A stretch of 30,347 nt of DNA from a virus: positions 1 to 30,347 of IMG/VR virus record IMGVR_UViG_3300032829_000258. One strand, written 5' to 3'. This document shows, one piece after another, positions 2,346-30,347 of this stretch (within the stretch, counting starts at the first letter, position 1; every line of letters starts with the position of its first letter). Under the pieces are notes generated by a model, which did not search any database, was not told the DNA's origin, and saw only the letters and a program-made list of their open reading frames with translations. A program made the position numbers and the translations under genes.

Positions 2346-4733
2346 TCAAAGCGGCGCGCCGCTGCTGTTCTCGCGATTTCGCCAGGTGATCGTAAATAAG
2401 CGTGATGCGCTGCTCTCCTCGGTCCGGGTCCGATGTCCGGGGAACTCCACCTCCACGCCCACCCGGCGCATTGCCGGGGCCAGACGGCGGAGCTGGCCCG
2501 ACAGCCCTCGGGGAGTTCGGGGGAAGCCTCCCCCGTCCCGTGTCGCCGCCGTCGCCTTCTCTCGGAGCAGCTCCAGCAGGTCCAGGCACGTGCCCCGCCA
2601 CTCGCCCCCCGGCATCCGTAGATTCTGTAACTCCACGGCGACCGGGCTCTCCTCCAGCACAAGCGCCGTGGCCTCGTCGCGGTTCGATCGGACGATCCGC
2701 GAGAACTCGCCCGGCGCCGCGCCGAGGTGCCGGCAGACGGCCTCGCCCCATCGTTCAAAGTCCGCCATCCGGATCATCCCGGGCAGTTCCACGCTCGGGT
2801 GCAACTTCATCGCCCCCACCGCCGCGTCGAGCACCGCGCCAAAGATCCGCGGATGCCGCTTCTCGAACTCGCCCCAGAGGACCTTGTCCTCCTTGCGCCG
2901 CTCGTCGGGTATCGGCGGGCACGTCACCAGCAGGGCCCGGTTCAAGAGGTCCGCCCGGTGGGCGAAGTCCTCGATCCCGTTCAAGATCATGGGCCGGGTC
3001 GCCTCGAAGATCTGCGACTCGTCGTTGCTGTAGTGCTTCCGCACCTGGAACCCCGCTCCCGTCGCCAGACGTGAGAGGCTGTCTGAGAACCATGGGGGAA
3101 GCTTGGAAATGTTGTCGACCGTGAACACCCAGCCCGAATTGGCGATCACCATGAAGTCTCGCTGGCTCTCGGGCTGAGACCCCAGCTTAGGTCGGGACGG
3201 GTCGATCACGTGCTTGAGGAGTCGGCATGTCGTGGACTTGGCGCTTCCTTGCTCGCCGGTGACAACGATCACGGGATACGGGCCGCCAGGGACCATCGCC
3301 CAGGTGAGCGCCGCGATCACCAGCTTCCGCGCGTCTTCCCCGTCCAGGTTTAGCAGCTCCCAGAGCTCGGCCAGCTCGGCGCCCGTCGCCGGTTCGGGAA
3401 GCGGGCCCAGTCCACCCGGCCGTCGAAACTTCACCGCCGGGTTCGTGACGATCTCCCACCCCTCGGCCGTGACCTGCACGGCCTGGCCCTTGTCGTTGCC
3501 CATGTCGACGTAGAACTCCAGGCCCGTCGGTCCCTTCGCCGGCCCGATCCGCACCTGCGCCTCGACCTGGGCGTCTCCCTCGAAGCACGCCCGCGCCACC
3601 AGGATGTCCTGGATCCGCTGCACCGCCTCGCTGGTGCATGGCTTCTTGTTCTGCGACCAGAACCGGAAGTTGAGCCACCGGTTCACCGCCAGCGAGGTCG
3701 CCGGATGGTTCTCCTTGTGGCCGTTGATCGGCAATGACACCCACGGATCGCCCGACGGCGTCCGGAAGACTTCCACGCCGTCGGTGAGCCGCAGCAAGAC
3801 GTCGGCGTGCGTCTCGATCTTGAACAGCTCGCCATCACCGTTGCCGTTGCCGTTGTGGTGACCGTTCTTCTTCTCCTCCTCGGGCGGAGGCGGCTCCCAC
3901 TCCGCCGTCTTCTCGGCCAGGATCACGAGCTGCTCGACCGTTCCGCCGGCCGCCAGGAAGTCACTGACGTCTCCCTTCTCCGCCAGGCCGGGCATGATCT
4001 CGACCAGGTCGACGATCTTCACCGTGGCCCCGTGCTCCTTCAGCGACTTCGCCACCATCCGGGCGTGCGCCCGGCCCTTGCCGCCGGGAAAGCGCTTCTC
4101 CGCCGTATCGTTGTCGGGGATCACGTAGCAGATCCGGCCGCGGAGGTCCTCCGCGTATCGGTCACGCCACTTCAATGCCCCCATCACATTGCAGGTCGCG
4201 ACGAGCCCGCGCTTGACCAGGTTGTCGACATCCTTCTCTCCCTCGACGATCCAGACCGGTTTCACCGGGTCGGCCGCGAGCAGCTCGGGGAGACGGTAGA
4301 GGACAGGATGGATCTCCTCGAACACGTCCTTGGTGATGAAACCGCCATTACCGTCGGGCCTGCGCTGGCTGAATGACTTCGACCCGTCGGGCCGCTGCCA
4401 TCGCAGGGTCTCGTGCAGCAGCTTGCCGTCGCGATCGTGGTAACGGTAGATCGCCACCACGTTGCCCCGGCCGCTCTTCTTGCTTCCCTGCCCACTACTC
4501 ACCGCCTCTCCGTGCGTCGATCCGCAGTCGCACGCCCCGCGCCGCCGGTGGCTGAAGGTTCGTGAGCCCTCGTGGAACTTGCACCCGGGAGAGCAGTCCT
4601 CCCGGGTGCAGTGGATCCAGTCATCCGTCAAGAAGCCGAAGCATCGCTTCCCCTCGCCGCGAGGCTCGTGCTCGCTGCCTCCGCAAACCGGGCAGGGATG
4701 ATCGGCCGTGAATCGCTGGATCCCGTCAGACAT
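2346..4733 (-). CDS. bifunctional phage DNA primase-helicase (zinc finger, Toprim, P-loop ATPase)
   Basis: About 795 residues. An N-terminal zinc-binding region has CPVC near residue 14, further Cys pairs (CTREDCSPGC) and CDC. A Toprim primase core follows, with VEGEKD near 164 (the catalytic acidic motif), PDNDTA near 206 and the family-typical KGDVSDFL near 253. A low-complexity Asn/Gly/His linker (near 290-301) separates this from an ATPase domain with Walker A GEQGSAKST near 493 and a Walker B-like VFTVDN near 536. Such proteins make primers and unwind DNA at phage forks. I chose the ATG at 4733 because GGAG lies 9 nt before it and it overlaps the ERF stop; ATGs at 4739 and 4748 are alternatives. 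It is the last gene before the iteron-like repeats. Confidence 0.9.
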   Translation of the reverse strand: MSDGIQRFTADHPCPVCGGSEHEPRGEGKRCFGFLTDDWIHCTREDCSPGCKFHEGSRTFSHRRRGACDCGSTHGEAVSSGQGSKKSGRGNVVAIYRYHDRDGKLLHETLRWQRPDGSKSFSQRRPDGNGGFITKDVFEEIHPVLYRLPELLAADPVKPVWIVEGEKDVDNLVKRGLVATCNVMGALKWRDRYAEDLRGRICYVIPDNDTAEKRFPGGKGRAHARMVAKSLKEHGATVKIVDLVEIMPGLAEKGDVSDFLAAGGTVEQLVILAEKTAEWEPPPPEEEKKNGHHNGNGNGDGELFKIETHADVLLRLTDGVEVFRTPSGDPWVSLPINGHKENHPATSLAVNRWLNFRFWSQNKKPCTSEAVQRIQDILVARACFEGDAQVEAQVRIGPAKGPTGLEFYVDMGNDKGQAVQVTAEGWEIVTNPAVKFRRPGGLGPLPEPATGAELAELWELLNLDGEDARKLVIAALTWAMVPGGPYPVIVVTGEQGSAKSTTCRLLKHVIDPSRPKLGSQPESQRDFMVIANSGWVFTVDNISKLPPWFSDSLSRLATGAGFQVRKHYSNDESQIFEATRPMILNGIEDFAHRADLLNRALLVTCPPIPDERRKEDKVLWGEFEKRHPRIFGAVLDAAVGAMKLHPSVELPGMIRMADFERWGEAVCRHLGAAPGEFSRIVRSNRDEATALVLEESPVAVELQNLRMPGGEWRGTCLDLLELLREKATAATRDGGGFPRTPRGLSGQLRRLAPAMRRVGVEVEFPGHRTRTEESSASRLFTITWRNRENSSGAPL

Positions 4734-22862: not shown

Positions 22863-23306
22863 TCAGAACCCCGAGAGTTGGAGGTAGCCGCCGACATAGA
22901 AGTCCATGACCTGGTTTGCCGACGACGTGCCCAGAACCGCCTGGAGCGCGTTGCCGCCAATGACCATGGGCTGCGTCTCGAACATCTGGGCGGCCGGCGA
23001 GGTGGCGAACACGGAGGCGCGGGCGACCGGCATCGTGCCGCTCTGGAGCTGAATGTCGACCTCGCTGGCGCCCGCCGTACTGGCGTTGAAGTCGGTGATG
23101 TAGAGCACCATCCCGCCGGGCACCGAAACGATGGGATACGTTGCCAGGGCGTTCGTCGCGTTTGACACGCGCGCGGCACACGAGAACAACGATTGCCCCG
23201 GCGCGAGCGGCCCCGCGGATGATCGGCCGACGAGGGGGGCGACCTCGTACTGATTGCCGTACTGGTCAAACGCCGGTTGTTGCGGCGACGGATTCGGGTA
23301 GGGCAT
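22863..23306 (-). CDS. hypothetical virion protein (147 aa)
   Basis: I use the ATG at 23306 (MPYPNPSPQQPAFDQYGNQY) because GAGGGGGA lies 8 nt before it; a GTG two codons earlier is possible. After a Pro-rich start, the rest is beta-sandwich-like (MVLYITDFNASTAGASEVDI). It overlaps the glycosyltransferase gene by 41 nt. Likely a virion decoration or fibre-base protein; function unknown. Confidence 0.55.
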   Translation of the reverse strand: MPYPNPSPQQPAFDQYGNQYEVAPLVGRSSAGPLAPGQSLFSCAARVSNATNALATYPIVSVPGGMVLYITDFNASTAGASEVDIQLQSGTMPVARASVFATSPAAQMFETQPMVIGGNALQAVLGTSSANQVMDFYVGGYLQLSGF

Positions 23307-23991
23307 TGTCACTCCCCCTCATGACCTTCGAGTCGACCATCCGGACCTGGTTGATCCAGGCCCGGTCGTAATCTGCCATGGTCACGGGTGCGATCCGCAG
23401 GTGATGACACTCCACCTTCGGCGCACACACGACCGGAATTTCGAGCTTGCGGAGCCGCAGAAAGAAGCTGTGATCCTCGCTCAGCTCCTCGTAGCGGGCG
23501 AACGGCTTTTCCTTGAGCTCGGTCTTGATCCGGTCAAACACCTTGCGTTTCGCCCAGAGACACCCGCCGCCCGCGGAATCGACGATCATCGCCGTCGCCT
23601 GGCGGTCCCACTCGACGAGCGGATAAAAGCCGTCTTCCAGCCGCCGGTACAGGACCGGACTGTGCGGGTGCTGGCGGAACTGGTACATGCCTACGACCAC
23701 GTCGGCCTCGGTCTGCGTCGCGACGTTGATCAGGCGGGCCAGGAGATCGGGCTCGAACTGGTGATCCGTGTCGAGCTGCAAGAGCCAGTCGCCGCGCATC
23801 TCCTCGACCATCATGTTCCTGGTGACGTCGTGGACCGAGCAGTGCGGGAATCGCGGGTAGTAGATGAACTCGTTCGGCTGGCAGAAGAACTGCTGGTTCC
23901 AGGCCATCATGTCGATGAACGAGTCGACGAACTGCCCCAGGTAGGCCGGGCAGCCGCCCATGCGGGCCACGGTGCCCAGGTATTTGGTCAT
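23266..23991 (-). CDS. GT-A-type (family 2-like) glycosyltransferase
   Basis: About 241 residues from the ATG at 23991, which overlaps the preceding stop (ATGA); an ATG at 24000 is an alternative. WLLQLDTDHQF holds the D-x-D metal/nucleotide-sugar motif (about residues 74-76), ELSEDHSFFLRL near 170 the acidic acceptor-site motif, and VECHHLRIAP near 193 the downstream His motif seen in such enzymes. It would transfer a sugar from a nucleotide donor. Directly after the fusion gene, it probably acts on the same glycan, perhaps decorating the capsid or fibre. Hydroxymethylated-DNA glucosylation is less likely without base-modifying genes. Confidence 0.78.
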   Translation of the reverse strand: MTKYLGTVARMGGCPAYLGQFVDSFIDMMAWNQQFFCQPNEFIYYPRFPHCSVHDVTRNMMVEEMRGDWLLQLDTDHQFEPDLLARLINVATQTEADVVVGMYQFRQHPHSPVLYRRLEDGFYPLVEWDRQATAMIVDSAGGGCLWAKRKVFDRIKTELKEKPFARYEELSEDHSFFLRLRKLEIPVVCAPKVECHHLRIAPVTMADYDRAWINQVRMVDSKVMRGSDNALPESVAATTGV

Positions 23992-25607
23992 ACTGAGCAT
24001 GCGAGAACTCCGTGGCCGTCAAACGGCGGTGCGCCTGTGAAGTCGTAATGAATCGGCTCGACCTTGGTCTCCTTGAGGCCAGCCGCGGCCAGCCACTGGC
24101 GTATCCGGGACAGCGGCACGCGGTGCGTGTGGTAGCCGGGGCTGTCACCGTCGTACATTCGTTTCTCGGCCCCGCCGCTCTGCTCCTCGAAAGTCCGGTG
24201 ATCATCGGGGACCGTCAGCACGATCTGACCGCCCTGGGCGAGCACGTTTTTGGCGTTAAAGAGAGTCCTGATCGCTTCCTCGTCGGTGAAATGCTCGAGC
24301 ACCTCGCCGATCACGACGCTATCGAACGACTCCGGCGGGAAGGGTAGCGGCTCACGGCAATCGTGCAGCACGTCGACCACGTTCTCCCAGCCGCACGGGT
24401 CGGTCTGCTGGATATCGAGATTGACCCCGCCGCGCTGGCCGAACCGGGGAAAGTCGCGGTTGCTGCCGATGTTGAGCACCCGGCCGTTTCCGTGCCGGAT
24501 CTGGAAATCCATCTGACAGCCCCAGACGTCCGTCGCGTATTCCTCGTATTGCCTCGCGATCTTGTCCCAGGTGAACTTGTCGCGGGCCCAGGCCATCATG
24601 CCGGGGCGAATCTTCGCCTGGCGGTCGGCGTCGCGGGCCAGGGCGACCAGCTCGGCGACGTAGTTTGCCTTGACGAGCGGGTCTTTCGGGTCGCCCTCGA
24701 TCCAGGTCCCGTGCCGCACGTTGTCGGCCAGGGCCCAGACGGGCGCCGTGAGCGGAATGGCGCCGAGCGCCTGCGCTTCCATGCACGTGACACAGCTCGT
24801 TTCGGTGAACTTCGTCGGATAGCACCAGATGCCCGCCGACAGGAATTCGCGGTAAAGATCGCGCTGGTTCATGCGGCCGAGCCACGTCGCGCCGGTCTCG
24901 GCGACCAGGGCCTCGCATTCCGCCTTGAGCCGGATGAGCTGCTGGTCGGCCGCGGCCTTGTCGATATTGTTGAAGCCGTACGCCGCACTGAGCTTAAGCC
25001 GCGGCTCGAACTCCCGGGCCCGCTTGAAGATCTTCAGCAAATCGGCCAGGCCGCGGTCGGGTGAGCTGGTGAAGACGACCTTGAACGGGTCGCGTTCAAT
25101 TCCCTCTGCTTCGACCTCCTCGACCAGCTCGACCTTGAGCCCGTTGGAACTCAGGCCGATCTTGCCGTTCATCTCCGGGTATTCGCCCAGGAGGTAGCGC
25201 ACATGGGCATTGCAGAGCCCGATCAGGATGTCGAGCTTCGCCGCCCGCTCGTGCGTCAGGCCCCACGAGGAGGTTGCGGGATAGGCCACGTCCTGGCAGA
25301 CCAGCCAGAGCTTCTGGAACGGGTGCGGATCGGGAAACCGGTCGATGTCCGCGGGACATCGGGAGAGAACCCACATTCCGCGGGCGGTGAAATCCGCTTC
25401 CTCGCACCGGAACCACTTCGCCCCGCCCTTGTCGATGGGCGGGCAGTCGTCGCGGATCGGCGCGTAGACCTTGACGGCGTGACCGAGGCGAGCGAGCCGC
25501 CAGGCCAGCTCGACGACGGCCGTTTCGCTGCCGCCGATGCCCGTGTCGTCGGGCGTGCGATGATCCCACCGCTCGTAATAGAGCGGCGCGTAAAAGTGAT
25601 AGTCCAT
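23988..25607 (-). CDS. fusion of a GT-B (family 4-like) glycosyltransferase and a SAM-dependent methyltransferase
   Basis: 539 residues. N-terminal GT part (about 1-360): TGIGGSETAVVELAWRLARL (22-41) is the acceptor-side glycine loop, and TETSCVTCMEAQALGAIPLT (268-287) is the donor-site E-x7-E segment (E269, E277). C-terminal class I methyltransferase part (about 375-539): RVLNIGSN (376-383) is motif I, NLDIQ its acidic partner, and LPFPPESFDSVVIGEVLEHF (421-440) the post-motif II region. Such methyltransferases cap or trim glycans. GGAG lies 10 nt upstream. The following gene is a second glycosyltransferase. Confidence 0.85.
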   Translation of the reverse strand: MDYHFYAPLYYERWDHRTPDDTGIGGSETAVVELAWRLARLGHAVKVYAPIRDDCPPIDKGGAKWFRCEEADFTARGMWVLSRCPADIDRFPDPHPFQKLWLVCQDVAYPATSSWGLTHERAAKLDILIGLCNAHVRYLLGEYPEMNGKIGLSSNGLKVELVEEVEAEGIERDPFKVVFTSSPDRGLADLLKIFKRAREFEPRLKLSAAYGFNNIDKAAADQQLIRLKAECEALVAETGATWLGRMNQRDLYREFLSAGIWCYPTKFTETSCVTCMEAQALGAIPLTAPVWALADNVRHGTWIEGDPKDPLVKANYVAELVALARDADRQAKIRPGMMAWARDKFTWDKIARQYEEYATDVWGCQMDFQIRHGNGRVLNIGSNRDFPRFGQRGGVNLDIQQTDPCGWENVVDVLHDCREPLPFPPESFDSVVIGEVLEHFTDEEAIRTLFNAKNVLAQGGQIVLTVPDDHRTFEEQSGGAEKRMYDGDSPGYHTHRVPLSRIRQWLAAAGLKETKVEPIHYDFTGAPPFDGHGVLACSV

Positions 25608-26624: not shown

Positions 26625-28013
26625 TCAGCAGTTGATGACGACGCCGAAGTCGGGACGGATCACGCCCAGGGCGTAGCCGAAATCGACGGTCACAAAGAGG
26701 GCCTGGTAGATGTGTACGTAGGACACCATGACGCGGAGGGGAATCCCCATGAGGTCGATGTAGCTCACGTCGACGACATTGCGGGCCTCGTCGGGCGTGG
26801 CGATCGGCCGCAGGGCCAGAGCGATGGCGTACTGGTGCAGCGCCAGGTTGGTGTAGCTCTGCACCGTCGCCGTCTGTCCGGCGCCGGCGTCCACGGCCAG
26901 GATCGGGGTCGCCAGCGTGACGCTCGTCGCCGAGCTGTAGGTGGCGATCTGGTAGAGGTTCGGGTTGGCCGTCGTGTTGTTGCTGAAGCTCAGCCACTGG
27001 CCAACGCTGGCCGCGGTGAAGTTGGTGCCCGATCCAGTGACCGTCGTGCTGCCCGCCGTGGTGGTCACGGTGCCCGCGACGTTGGTGATGAGCCGGGCCG
27101 TGGTCGTCACGCTGCCCGAGCTGACCAGGCTTGACGGGATCGACGAGCTGAGCACCAGGTTGGTGTCATTGCTGACGCTCGACACCTTGTACTGGGTCTT
27201 GGTCGAGTCGTTGCCGAACACCAGGTAGTAGCCGGCCAGAGAGGAACCGCTGGCGGCGGTGGTGAAGTTGGTGTTCAGGCCGACGACGGCGGTAGAGCCG
27301 CTGGTGATCGTCACCTGGCCGTAGAGGATCGTGCCCGATGCGGTCGGCATCTGCTGATCCCAGACGGGCTGGAAGTTGAAGGCGTTTTGCAGGCTGGCAG
27401 TTGTGCGGGCCTGCTGCGCGATCGCCGCGGCGACCAAGCTTTCCTGCACCCAGCCGGCGTCGCCGAGCATCTTCTGGTACACGCGGTTGTGCACGCACAT
27501 CCGGAGCTTGTCCGGGTCGTCGAGGGGCACCTTCTGATCGGCCAGCACGCCCCAGGCGTTGAGCTGATCGGCGACCGTGACCTCGCCCTGCGTCGCCCCG
27601 TAGATGGGCGCGTTGGCGTTGAAGTTGGCCGAGGTGATCAGCGCGGCGATCTGACCGTTGAGGTACTCACGCGCCCTCTTGTAGAGCGGGTCGAAGAACT
27701 TCGTGGCCAGGTCGACGGCGGTCTGCCACTGCTCGAAGTCCTGGAACTGGAGCGCGGCGCCGGGGCGGTTCTGGAAGACCAGGGGCACGTAATTGGGCGC
27801 GACGCTCTGCCCGGACAGGATGCCATTTCCCACGTTGGACAGGGGTCCAAAATCTGGGAAATACACATCAACAGTTTTACCTATTCTTGCGGCCTCGGGC
27901 TTGACGTCCTTGTGCACGGCGTTCAGGAGCGCGGTCTGTCCGACCTTGGCCTTGTTGTATTCGTCGGCCCCGGCCACGAGGGTCTCGAAGAATGCTGAGA
28001 AATTGTTCGCCAT
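26625..28013 (-). CDS. major capsid protein, P22 coat-like, with two inserted beta modules
   Basis: 462 residues. N-terminal part: FFETLVAGADEYNKAKVGQT, then GKTVDVYFPDFGP (46-58) and FQDFEQWQTAVDLATKFFDP (90-109), like P22-type coat proteins. C-terminal part: IDLMGIPLRVMVSYVH (419-434) followed by VDFGYALGVIRPDFGVVI, the P22-type end. Between them lie two related beta modules, about 228-295 and 312-385, each with a 'GST.V.G..TNF' start and a 'Y.v.s.....lvL' end. P22 coat has an insertion domain too, but this one looks duplicated. It forms the icosahedral shell. GGAG lies 10 nt before the ATG. A scaffold-like gene precedes it. Confidence 0.82.
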   Translation of the reverse strand: MANNFSAFFETLVAGADEYNKAKVGQTALLNAVHKDVKPEAARIGKTVDVYFPDFGPLSNVGNGILSGQSVAPNYVPLVFQNRPGAALQFQDFEQWQTAVDLATKFFDPLYKRAREYLNGQIAALITSANFNANAPIYGATQGEVTVADQLNAWGVLADQKVPLDDPDKLRMCVHNRVYQKMLGDAGWVQESLVAAAIAQQARTTASLQNAFNFQPVWDQQMPTASGTILYGQVTITSGSTAVVGLNTNFTTAASGSSLAGYYLVFGNDSTKTQYKVSSVSNDTNLVLSSSIPSSLVSSGSVTTTARLITNVAGTVTTTAGSTTVTGSGTNFTAASVGQWLSFSNNTTANPNLYQIATYSSATSVTLATPILAVDAGAGQTATVQSYTNLALHQYAIALALRPIATPDEARNVVDVSYIDLMGIPLRVMVSYVHIYQALFVTVDFGYALGVIRPDFGVVINC

Positions 28014-28073: not shown

Positions 28074-28295
28074 TCAAACAAAAGGGACGTGCGGCGGGTG
28101 ATTCGCGGAGCAGATCGAGTGCTCGACGATGGCGATCGCGACGTAACGATCGAAGTTGAAGTTGCACGGGTTGAAGCGAGGCAGTCGCACGGCGTCGTGC
28201 AGGGCCCGGGCGATCACCGCCCGGTATTGTTCGCCGTGGATCGCGACGTAGCGGTCCACTTCGGACGCGGGCAGATCAGCGAATGACTGGGCCAC
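28074..28295 (-). CDS. small hypothetical protein (73 aa), GTG start
   Basis: The GTG at 28295 (MAQSFADLPASEVDRYVAIH) has GGAG 9 nt upstream and overlaps the scaffold-like gene by 20 nt. Charged, helical N-terminal half; 'DRYVAI' occurs twice (near residues 14 and 49). Unknown function; a capsid-assembly accessory is possible from its place between scaffold and capsid genes. Confidence 0.5.
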   Translation of the reverse strand: MAQSFADLPASEVDRYVAIHGEQYRAVIARALHDAVRLPRFNPCNFNFDRYVAIAIVEHSICSANHPPHVPFV

Positions 28296-28923
28296 CGCTC
28301 AGGGCTCCGCTGGCATGCGAGACCGCGGCCTTGATGTACTCCTTGTTTCGTGGGTCGAGCATGAACTTGGGGTCGGCCATCTGGTCAGAGGTCAATCGCG
28401 GGACGGTCGTATTCCGGTCAGCCCGGCCGCCGCCGGCGGGCCTGGCCGCGGTCGCCGGGATCTCCAGCCCGCTGCGGGTCTTGGCAGGAGGAGCGGCTGC
28501 CGCGGGGCTGTCGGCAGCCTCGAAGGCGAAATCCGCCTCGGTCTTCAAACCGTCCAGCAGCTCGGCGAGCTTGGCGTCGTCGGGCTCATCCTTGTCGGCC
28601 TGGTACTCGGCGAGCTTCCAGAGGTGCTTGACCGCGGCGGGCTTGGCGCCCTTCTCGGCGGCGAGCTCGGCGAAGCGGTCGTACGCCGTCTTGTCGCGGA
28701 GCTGCTGCTTGAGCGCGGCGAGTTCCTTGGTCTGCTCGTCGGGGTCGGCGACCTTGGCCTTGAGCGCGGCGAGCTCCTTCTGGGCGTCTTCGAGCGCTTT
28801 CTGCGCGGCGTCTCGCTCGAGCTTGAACTCTCGCATTTTGCCGCCCATCTTGGCGATCTTGCCCGGAGAGAGCGTGACCGGCTGAGTGGCGGGAGTCTCC
28901 TTGGTGGGTGCGGCTGCGGCCAT
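28276..28923 (-). CDS. scaffold-like protein with coiled coil (215 aa)
   Basis: Starts at the ATG at 28923, overlapping the preceding stop (ATGA), with AAAGG 8 nt upstream. Residues about 25-80 are a long charged coiled coil (RDAAQKALEDAQKELAALKA). A Pro/Ala-rich, probably disordered, region (about 145-180) and a short C-terminal helix follow (LTSDQMADPKFMLDPRNKEY). This is the layout of scaffolding proteins, which bind coat protein during assembly and leave before packaging, and its gene lies upstream of the coat gene as usual. Confidence 0.75.
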   Translation of the reverse strand: MAAAAPTKETPATQPVTLSPGKIAKMGGKMREFKLERDAAQKALEDAQKELAALKAKVADPDEQTKELAALKQQLRDKTAYDRFAELAAEKGAKPAAVKHLWKLAEYQADKDEPDDAKLAELLDGLKTEADFAFEAADSPAAAAPPAKTRSGLEIPATAARPAGGGRADRNTTVPRLTSDQMADPKFMLDPRNKEYIKAAVSHASGALSGGPVIR

Positions 28924-29435
28924 CACTTACCTTTCGTCATCTTGGACAGGAAGAGGGGTAGGCCCATGTCTTTGATCAGTTGCTGCTTGCGGTCGCCCTC
29001 GAGGTAGAGCTTGTCGAGGTCGCGGGCGTAGCCGTGGAACTTCTCGTTGATCGCCCGGTAGCTTGCCCGGTCGGCCGGGTCGCTGGCGTTCTTGCGCGCG
29101 GCGTTCGCCGCCTCGAACACGGCCTGGTGAGCGGCTCGCAGGCCGTCGATCGTGTCACATGCCTGCTCGAAGGCGTCGGGCGCGTTGTCGGCGTAGGACG
29201 TGTCGCCGAGGTTCGTGTCGACCGTCGCGCCCAGCTCCATCAAGGTCTTGCGGCAATCATGCTGCCGGCAAACCGCCTCGCGATGCCGCTTGTGAAACCA
29301 CTTCTTGAGCTTCGGATAAGCGGTCGTACCGTCCTTGAAAGCGTGCTCTTGCTTGTGCCACTTCTCGCTCGCCGTGAACTCGGCGTCATGCGCGGCCTGG
29401 AGGGCGTCGATGAGATCAGAATCGGGGGAATCCAC
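28923..29435 (-). CDS. bacterioferritin-like four-helix protein (170 aa), GTG start
   Basis: The GTG at 29435 has GAGGG 8 nt upstream. The helical sequence aligns by eye with bacterioferritin: DAEFTASEKWHKQEH (17-31) corresponds to the first helix with its Glu (Glu19), HKRHREAVCRQHDCRKTLME (48-67) to the second helix (its ExxH appears as C56-x-x-H59), EKFH (131-134) to the second ExxH, and LIKDMGLPLFL (153-163) to the family C-terminus 'LIqKMGLqnYL'. The iron site is thus only partly conserved. Bacterioferritins store iron; here, between portal and scaffold genes, it may be a structural use of the fold. An unrelated helical bundle is the alternative. Confidence 0.6.
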   Translation of the reverse strand: MDSPDSDLIDALQAAHDAEFTASEKWHKQEHAFKDGTTAYPKLKKWFHKRHREAVCRQHDCRKTLMELGATVDTNLGDTSYADNAPDAFEQACDTIDGLRAAHQAVFEAANAARKNASDPADRASYRAINEKFHGYARDLDKLYLEGDRKQQLIKDMGLPLFLSKMTKGK

Positions 29436-29436
29436 G

Positions 29437-29598
29437 TCAGAACCCTCTTTCTGGTGGGCAGGTCATTTCGCCCTTGATTGCGCAGTTCACGAAGAACACG
29501 CCGAGGGCAACTTTCCACCCGCCCGACCAGATCAGAAGTCCGTAGCCGATCACATAGAGGACGGCGGTTGCGATTAGCCTTTCGCGATAGGTCGGCAT
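29437..29598 (-). CDS. very small membrane protein (53 aa)
   Basis: The ATG at 29598 overlaps the portal gene's stop (TGATG), with AGGAGG 10 nt upstream. It starts MPTYRERLIATAVLYVIGYG. Hydrophobic stretches at about 8-24 and 27-41 (WKVALGVFFVNCAI) suggest one or two membrane passes; the C-terminus is CPPERGF. Between portal and the bacterioferritin-like gene. A holin-like or minor virion role is possible; unassigned. Confidence 0.55.
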   Translation of the reverse strand: MPTYRERLIATAVLYVIGYGLLIWSGGWKVALGVFFVNCAIKGEMTCPPERGF

Positions 29599-30347
29599 CA
29601 CGTCGCGTCCTCCTCGGGATCGGTGTCATCGCTCTTGGTTGCCGCGGCGGCTTTCATCTGGTCAGCCTGGCGCGCGTCTTGCTCCTCGCTGGGCATCGTC
29701 GCCGAGCCGACTGGCGTCAGCTCTTGCGGGAGAATGTCCTTGATCTGCTCCTCGTCCTTGGCGACTTGCTTGATCTGCTCGACGGCCTGGTCGTGCGTGA
29801 GGCCGTACCGCTCCATGCAGACCGTGATCCGCGACTTGAGCCCCACCTGCATCTCCCACTCGTCGCTCTGGTCGCGTTCCGGGCCGGGCACGGGAATCCG
29901 CGGCTCGGCCCAGGCGAGCAGCAGTTGCAGGGTCTGGGCCTGGCTGACCAGGTCGGCATGCCCGTAGTGGTTGCCGGCGGCGGTCAAAATCACGCGGGCC
30001 AGGGCGAGCTCGACCATCTGGTAGAGCTTGCGGCGTTTCTTCGCACGCAGGAGGAGCGGCGCGGTCTTGATGATCAGGCTCACGCCCGACGGTGCGTCGC
30101 TGTACTCGAGCTCGAGGGCGCTCCATGGCAGGTCGATCGCGTTGGCCGTCTGCTTGATGTACTTCTCGAGGTCGACCCAGATGTCCTGAATCGCGAGCGT
30201 CGCCTGGAGATACTCGGCCGACGGTTCGCCCGTGTCGCCGTAACCCTCGCCGGTGTAGCCCGTGCCGCCGCGCACCAGTCGCAGGAACCGGCCGGGCCCC
30301 ACCTCGGGCGTGAACGCGGGCCCGACGTTCTTGAACACGCCGATCGG
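29598..30347 (-). CDS. portal protein, C-terminal part (5' end outside the window)
   Basis: The frame is open through the right edge (PIGVFKNVGPAF... at the boundary), so the gene starts outside; about 250 residues are visible. The early part (about residues 40-120 of the visible piece) is rich in helix: YLQATLAIQDIWVDLEKYIK, then LLLRAKKRRKLYQMVELALA, like the wing/stem region of phage portals. The end is acidic and Ala-rich (MKAAAATKSDDTDPEEDAT). The portal is the DNA gate between head and tail. It heads the structural operon in the order portal, scaffold, coat. The call rests on this order and helix pattern. Confidence 0.65.
   Translation of the reverse strand, partial: PIGVFKNVGPAFTPEVGPGRFLRLVRGGTGYTGEGYGDTGEPSAEYLQATLAIQDIWVDLEKYIKQTANAIDLPWSALELEYSDAPSGVSLIIKTAPLLLRAKKRRKLYQMVELALARVILTAAGNHYGHADLVSQAQTLQLLLAWAEPRIPVPGPERDQSDEWEMQVGLKSRITVCMERYGLTHDQAVEQIKQVAKDEEQIKDILPQELTPVGSATMPSEEQDARQADQMKAAAATKSDDTDPEEDAT

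Follow-up and report, generated by a model that had tools for sequence, protein, structure and literature searches.

A bacterioferritin-fold protein encoded between portal-like and scaffold-like genes in a phage head module

The window, by which the whole stretch of DNA analysed is meant, is a complete virus record of the IMG/VR type and a fragment of 30,347 bases. Its minus strand carries, in this order, a portal-like gene, an open reading frame for 53 residues, the ferritin-fold gene studied here, a scaffold-like gene, a small open reading frame and the major capsid protein gene. The ferritin-fold gene (28923..29435, minus strand) is an open reading frame of 170 amino acids with a GTG start. 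The sequence GTGA (28923..28926, minus strand) holds both its stop codon and the GTG start codon of the scaffold-like gene, which overlap. The scaffold-like gene (28276..28926, minus strand) encodes a coiled-coil-rich protein of 216 amino acids and precedes the capsid gene; the homologous protein of a related locus, L037, matched PF06810 Phage_scaffold (1.7e-7, just below the cut-off) and phrog_194 (2.1e-5). The small open reading frame at 28074-28295 (minus strand) separates the scaffold-like gene from the major capsid protein gene (26625..28013, minus strand; phrog_283, E 4.6e-23).

On the other side, the portal-like gene (29598..30347, minus strand) is cut by the window end, and its C-terminal part is present. 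The encoded protein matched PF05133 SPP1_portal with an E value of 1.4e-4, and the full-length homologue in L041 with 2.3e-4, both below the curated cut-off. The small hydrophobic open reading frame of 53 amino acids that follows (29437..29598, minus strand) overlaps the portal stop codon with its start (TGATG), and no homology was found to support it as a gene. The hits behind the portal and scaffold assignments are individually weak and mutually consistent, and on them the two genes are named as portal-like and scaffold-like. The earlier note had placed the ferritin-fold gene between portal and scaffold, and this arrangement was borne out, with the capsid gene downstream. A tail-tube match and baseplate-type matches were obtained farther along the window; judged by sequence similarity, these fit a tailed phage.

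Used as a lone query, the ferritin-fold protein found no relative in Pfam, PHROGs, NCBIfam, the PDB, INPHARED, IMG/VR or GTDB contigs. Only a search with the neighbouring capsid protein led to relatives; it gave 46 related loci. A homologue is encoded in 14 of these loci, all from uncultured phages, in a single copy per record and in every case directly upstream of the scaffold gene. Alignment A1 was made from 12 homologue sequences, the window protein included. Identity to the window protein is 43-54% for eight of the other 11 members and 22-25% for a distant clade (L037, L039 and L041). Apart from the start, A11, L12, H27, E30, L43, F47, R57, G69, K150 and G158 are invariant across all 12 sequences. 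A scan of GTDB genome contigs with the family profile gave no homologue; the scan needs short conserved stretches and is weak evidence of absence.

The window protein was modelled by AlphaFold2 with A1 (mean pLDDT 93.9, pTM 0.88). The model has helices at residues 6-35 (A), 41-67 (B), 85-116 (C), 120-157 (D) and 159-167 (E), and shows the antiparallel four-helix bundle with a long B-C crossover that marks the ferritin-like superfamily. The best 50 PDB matches returned by VIA-align were all Bfr, BfrB or FtnA (Z 20.4-22.3, rmsd 1.2-2.0 Å, 152-157 residues aligned, 4-16% identity), and comparison with 1bcf in Foldseek gave TM scores of 0.86 and 0.92 and an rmsd of 1.7. The structure prediction and fold search called for in the earlier note, for which any fold other than ferritin was the adverse outcome, thus returned a four-helix ferritin bundle with Z 20-22.

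Profile comparisons agree with the model. Three homologues score above the curated cut-off of Pfam Ferritin (PF00210): L037 (1.8e-11), L041 (3.1e-9) and L039 (7.7e-6). A search of the whole records placed PF00210 above the cut-off in five of them, and 10 of the 12 A1 members match it at a loose threshold. The window protein itself gave no match to PF00210 and is tied to the matching homologues through A1. In hhalign, the A1 profile matched a profile of seven bacterioferritins over its whole length with a probability of 95.2% (E 2.8e-8); 60 column shuffles reached 9.6% at most and the reversed alignment 0.1%. The 12-member profile was also aligned by HMMER end to end with residues 1-151 of E. 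coli Bfr. The MGLPLFL end falls on MGLQNYL of Bfr and is modelled as a fifth helix. The similarity to Bfr over the whole length and the MGLxxxL end, both claimed in the earlier note, therefore stand. The single sequence has no significant match, so this by-eye likeness is one that one-sequence searches miss.

Bacterioferritin is the closest relative both in fold and by profile, E helix included. Because the fold matches, the Pfam Ferritin hits and the profile score against its controls agree, the window protein is assigned to the ferritin-like superfamily, nearest to bacterioferritin. The model of the distant homologue L037 is poorer (pTM 0.71); it is close to Bfr only across helices A-B (70 residues, about 1.0-1.4 Å), and, taken whole, it is matched best by rubrerythrins, with an rmsd of about 6 Å. 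As a prediction it helps to set the A-B register, and it does not confirm a closed bundle for the distant clade.

The ferroxidase centre of E. coli Bfr is built from E18, E51, H54, E94, E127 and H130, and haem is bound by Met52. E18 corresponds to E19 of the window protein in both sequence alignments and is replaced by Asn in two relatives. E51 and H54 fall on A54 and R57 by hhalign and on E53 and C56 by HMMER. Residues 8-77 of the L037 protein match residues 1-70 of FtnA and SoBfr12 without gaps (rmsd 1.0 Å); in the structural match, Bfr E51 lies on A58 and H54 on R61, which are A54 and R57 of the window protein in A1. The A54/R57 register is preferred because this gapless match agrees with it, and Bfr H54 is then most likely replaced by the invariant arginine R57. 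The register of helix B is uncertain by one residue, and E53 and C56 might occupy the positions of E51 and H54.

Elsewhere, E94 falls on I96 or T95 depending on the alignment, E127 and H130 on L140 and L143 in either sequence alignment, and the haem ligand Met52 on A54 or V55, with Met at this position in none of the 12 members. Of the six ferroxidase ligands, one is thus clearly kept (E19) and five are replaced in the preferred register. A di-iron ferroxidase of the Bfr type is very unlikely because the positions of E51/H54, E94, E127 and H130 are replaced. The earlier note had read one ExxH site as turned into CxxH and had considered, as one option, an iron protein packed in the virion. C56-R-Q-H59 and E131-K-F-H134 do occur; neither is aligned with E51xxH54 or E127xxH130, and their pairing as Bfr ligand sites was rejected, both being out of register. 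The iron-protein label is not supported, most ferroxidase ligands and the haem methionine being gone; packing in the virion is possible.

Compared with bacterioferritin (PF00210, 1bcf), the window protein thus has in common the whole-chain fold, the short E helix that begins with MGLxxxL and a full-length profile match. It differs in the absence of five of the six ferroxidase ligands (in the preferred register) and of haem Met52, in a longer C-D region and in the location of its gene, a phage head operon. Dps encoded by phages (PHROG 3636, 'DNA binding protein'), known from Gratiaviridae, Lactobacillus, Streptomyces and Grimontviridae phages, is likewise a ferritin-superfamily protein of tailed phages. 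Dps has no E helix, and its set of intersubunit ligands is not found in the window protein, which, aligned by HMMER with Listeria Dps, shares H31 but has H59 and K63 where Dps has D58 and E62. The A1 profile matched five phage Dps proteins at 29.7% over 90 columns, against 95.2% for Bfr. Dps was rejected as the best assignment on account of the missing D58/E62 ligands and this profile match. A scan of IMG/VR for Dps retained only stand-alone proteins like that of S-SRM01, and a scan for Bfr of the E. coli type matched two viral contigs.

The gene is under purifying selection, with pairwise dN/dS values of 0.09-0.55 in the family; the highest values involve the window protein. Its divergence correlates with that of the scaffold (Mantel r 0.83, p 0.0002) and of the portal (Mantel r 0.85, p 0.002). 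Gene neighbourhood and parallel divergence can be explained by linkage alone. Portal and scaffold are both present in 28 loci; the ferritin-fold gene accompanies them in 10 of these and is missing from 18. The portal and scaffold frames overlap in L040, leaving no room for a gene, and in other loci unrelated small genes occupy the slot. Nine records without the gene have no second-site copy in their available sequence, and all may be fragments. Since 18 of 28 related loci with portal and scaffold do without it, the gene is accessory and not required for this type of head. For the ferritin used in assembly that the earlier note had envisaged, the link to the head module holds (fixed position, stop/start coupling and parallel divergence), and a role in assembly is weakened by the same 18 loci.

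The slot is filled in several ways. Proteins are encoded there in L005 (1563-3458), L008 (2205-3962), L011 (2544-3275), L022 (3253-4029), L036 (1826-2986), L038 (3015-3461) and L042 (2824-3534). Several of these have a common N-terminus (WVTLDDGQHVYIG or WVTINGNHVLIG) and variable C-termini, which by eye include a zincin-like stretch with HExxH (L008 and L011), an ART-like one (L036) and a ParB-like one (L005). They look like a modular accessory family, possibly delivered with the virion. A small Cys-rich protein (MCMNGKCGRCGAACKAPEPK...) fills the slot in L014, L016, L018, L024 and L045, which have no ferritin-like gene there. In L037, a DNA N6/N4 methylase (2792-3610; PF01555, 1.7e-30) is inserted between the portal and the ferritin-like gene; Pfam returned nothing on the other slot proteins.

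Four explanations were weighed. The one ranked first, and held tentatively, is an accessory head-module protein with the bacterioferritin fold and no ferroxidase, made with the procapsid and probably associated with the head. It is preferred because the ferroxidase ligands are lost and the position is fixed. Ranked next, and rather doubtful, is an auxiliary metabolic gene, that is, a cytoplasmic ferritin-like protein handling iron, haem or peroxide for which the head operon merely provides late expression. Phage Dps genes are common (PMC8008677; PMC6669764) and a Bfr has been reported from a Bathyarchaeia virus (PMC10904782); patchy presence suits such a gene, and that most relatives do without it is as compatible with an accessory gene directed at the host as with a dispensable head component. 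However, the family has other residues in place of the haem methionine and of most Bfr ferroxidase ligands, and the ferritin-fold gene lies invariably directly before the scaffold gene. Unlike here, Dps in five annotated phage records sits with nucleotide-metabolism or other non-head genes; these records gave no support to the idea that the head modules of other phages also hold Dps genes.

Somewhat less probable still is a new metal site, for example at a dimer interface, in which H27, E30 and H31 together with H48, H51 and H59 of helix B would bind Fe, Zn or another metal; it would resemble the intersubunit site of Dps and use other residues. Among the 12 sequences, H27 and E30 do not vary and H31 hardly varies, the proteins of the main clade hold 8-15 histidines, and HMMER aligns H31 with the ligand H31 of Listeria Dps. 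Against these points, the distant clade has Arg in place of H59, most members have Asp in place of H48, the equivalents of Dps D58 and E62 are not carboxylates in the window protein, and the histidines could serve packing or DNA contact instead. That the protein is not a ferritin at all, its likeness arising by chance in an unrelated helical bundle such as a second scaffold or a portal-binding bundle, is highly improbable. The single sequence lacks a significant database match, middling structural scores come easily to helical bundles, and the L037 model is close to Bfr over helices A-B only; yet Z values of 20-22 were obtained over nearly the whole chain with bacterioferritins and ferritins as the sole top 50, homologues exceed the Pfam Ferritin cut-off, and shuffled and reversed controls score far lower.

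For the non-enzymatic head-associated protein, the following course is proposed. The gene would be expressed late, in step with the portal and scaffold. The product would probably oligomerise through a two-fold interface of the Bfr type; by residue numbering, the invariant H27 and the nearly invariant H31 map to the face of helix A that lines the haem and dimer interface in Bfr. It may then enter the procapsid or attach to it as a head component that is not essential; its gene lies in the slot that holds gp7 in SPP1 and different accessory genes in other relatives. Its role would be structural, or protective of the genome or virion, and not that of an iron oxidase. In this explanation the protein descends from a bacterioferritin of cells or from a near relative among the ferritins. 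That a ferroxidase-less bacterioferritin was recruited into the virion, as a head protein lying inside or at the portal vertex and co-assembled with the procapsid, is a possibility to which less credence is given. No procapsid-targeting motif was identified in the protein.

Two known systems bear likeness to this arrangement. SPP1 gp7 is encoded in the portal-scaffold slot, binds the portal and enters the procapsid in few copies, where it is internal and dispensable; related proteins of other phages bear fused toxins (PMC6316719). The window protein resembles gp7 and the MuF minor head proteins in gene slot and dispensability alone, the folds being unrelated as far as known. Encapsulins have ferritin-like cargo encoded beside the shell gene, and their shells are related to phage capsids (PMC7355545). 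This cargo is likewise of the ferritin superfamily, with its gene next to that of an icosahedral shell of the phage capsid lineage. Encapsulin cargo (e.g. of Myxococcus) mineralises iron and carries a loading peptide, whereas no loading peptide was identified in the window protein and its Bfr-type site is lost.

A ferritin fold in the portal-scaffold slot was not found described in the literature searched, outside which most subscription journals lie. Two peptides of host Bfr were detected in purified AXL1 virions (PMC9206674) and may stem from a co-purifying host protein. Until now, the ferritin-like proteins of phages have been interpreted as products of stress or iron genes that work inside the infected cell. 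That selection maintains, in a head operon, a family with the Bfr fold but no longer its iron chemistry suggests that ferritins may have taken on a second role in viruses; encapsulins, with shells of the phage capsid fold and ferritin-like cargo, would offer a parallel to a role in the head.

Three BFVD entries from uncultured Caudovirales named 'prohead protease' (A0A6J7XDU5, A0A6J7WIS1 and A0A6J7WPK9) match the ferritin-fold model. Their names suggest Dps-like domains fused to head proteases and, if true, such fusions would be an independent case of a ferritin fold in phage heads.

Two further observations were made near the head genes of the window. Insertions at about residues 230-390 of the capsid protein (26625-28013) match the tail fibre families phrog_1980 (2.1e-11) and phrog_6567 (5.4e-9), and look as if they were surface domains taken from fibres. 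Directly downstream of the head genes (23266-25607, minus strand) are encoded a glycosyltransferase-methyltransferase fusion of 539 amino acids and a GT2-like glycosyltransferase.
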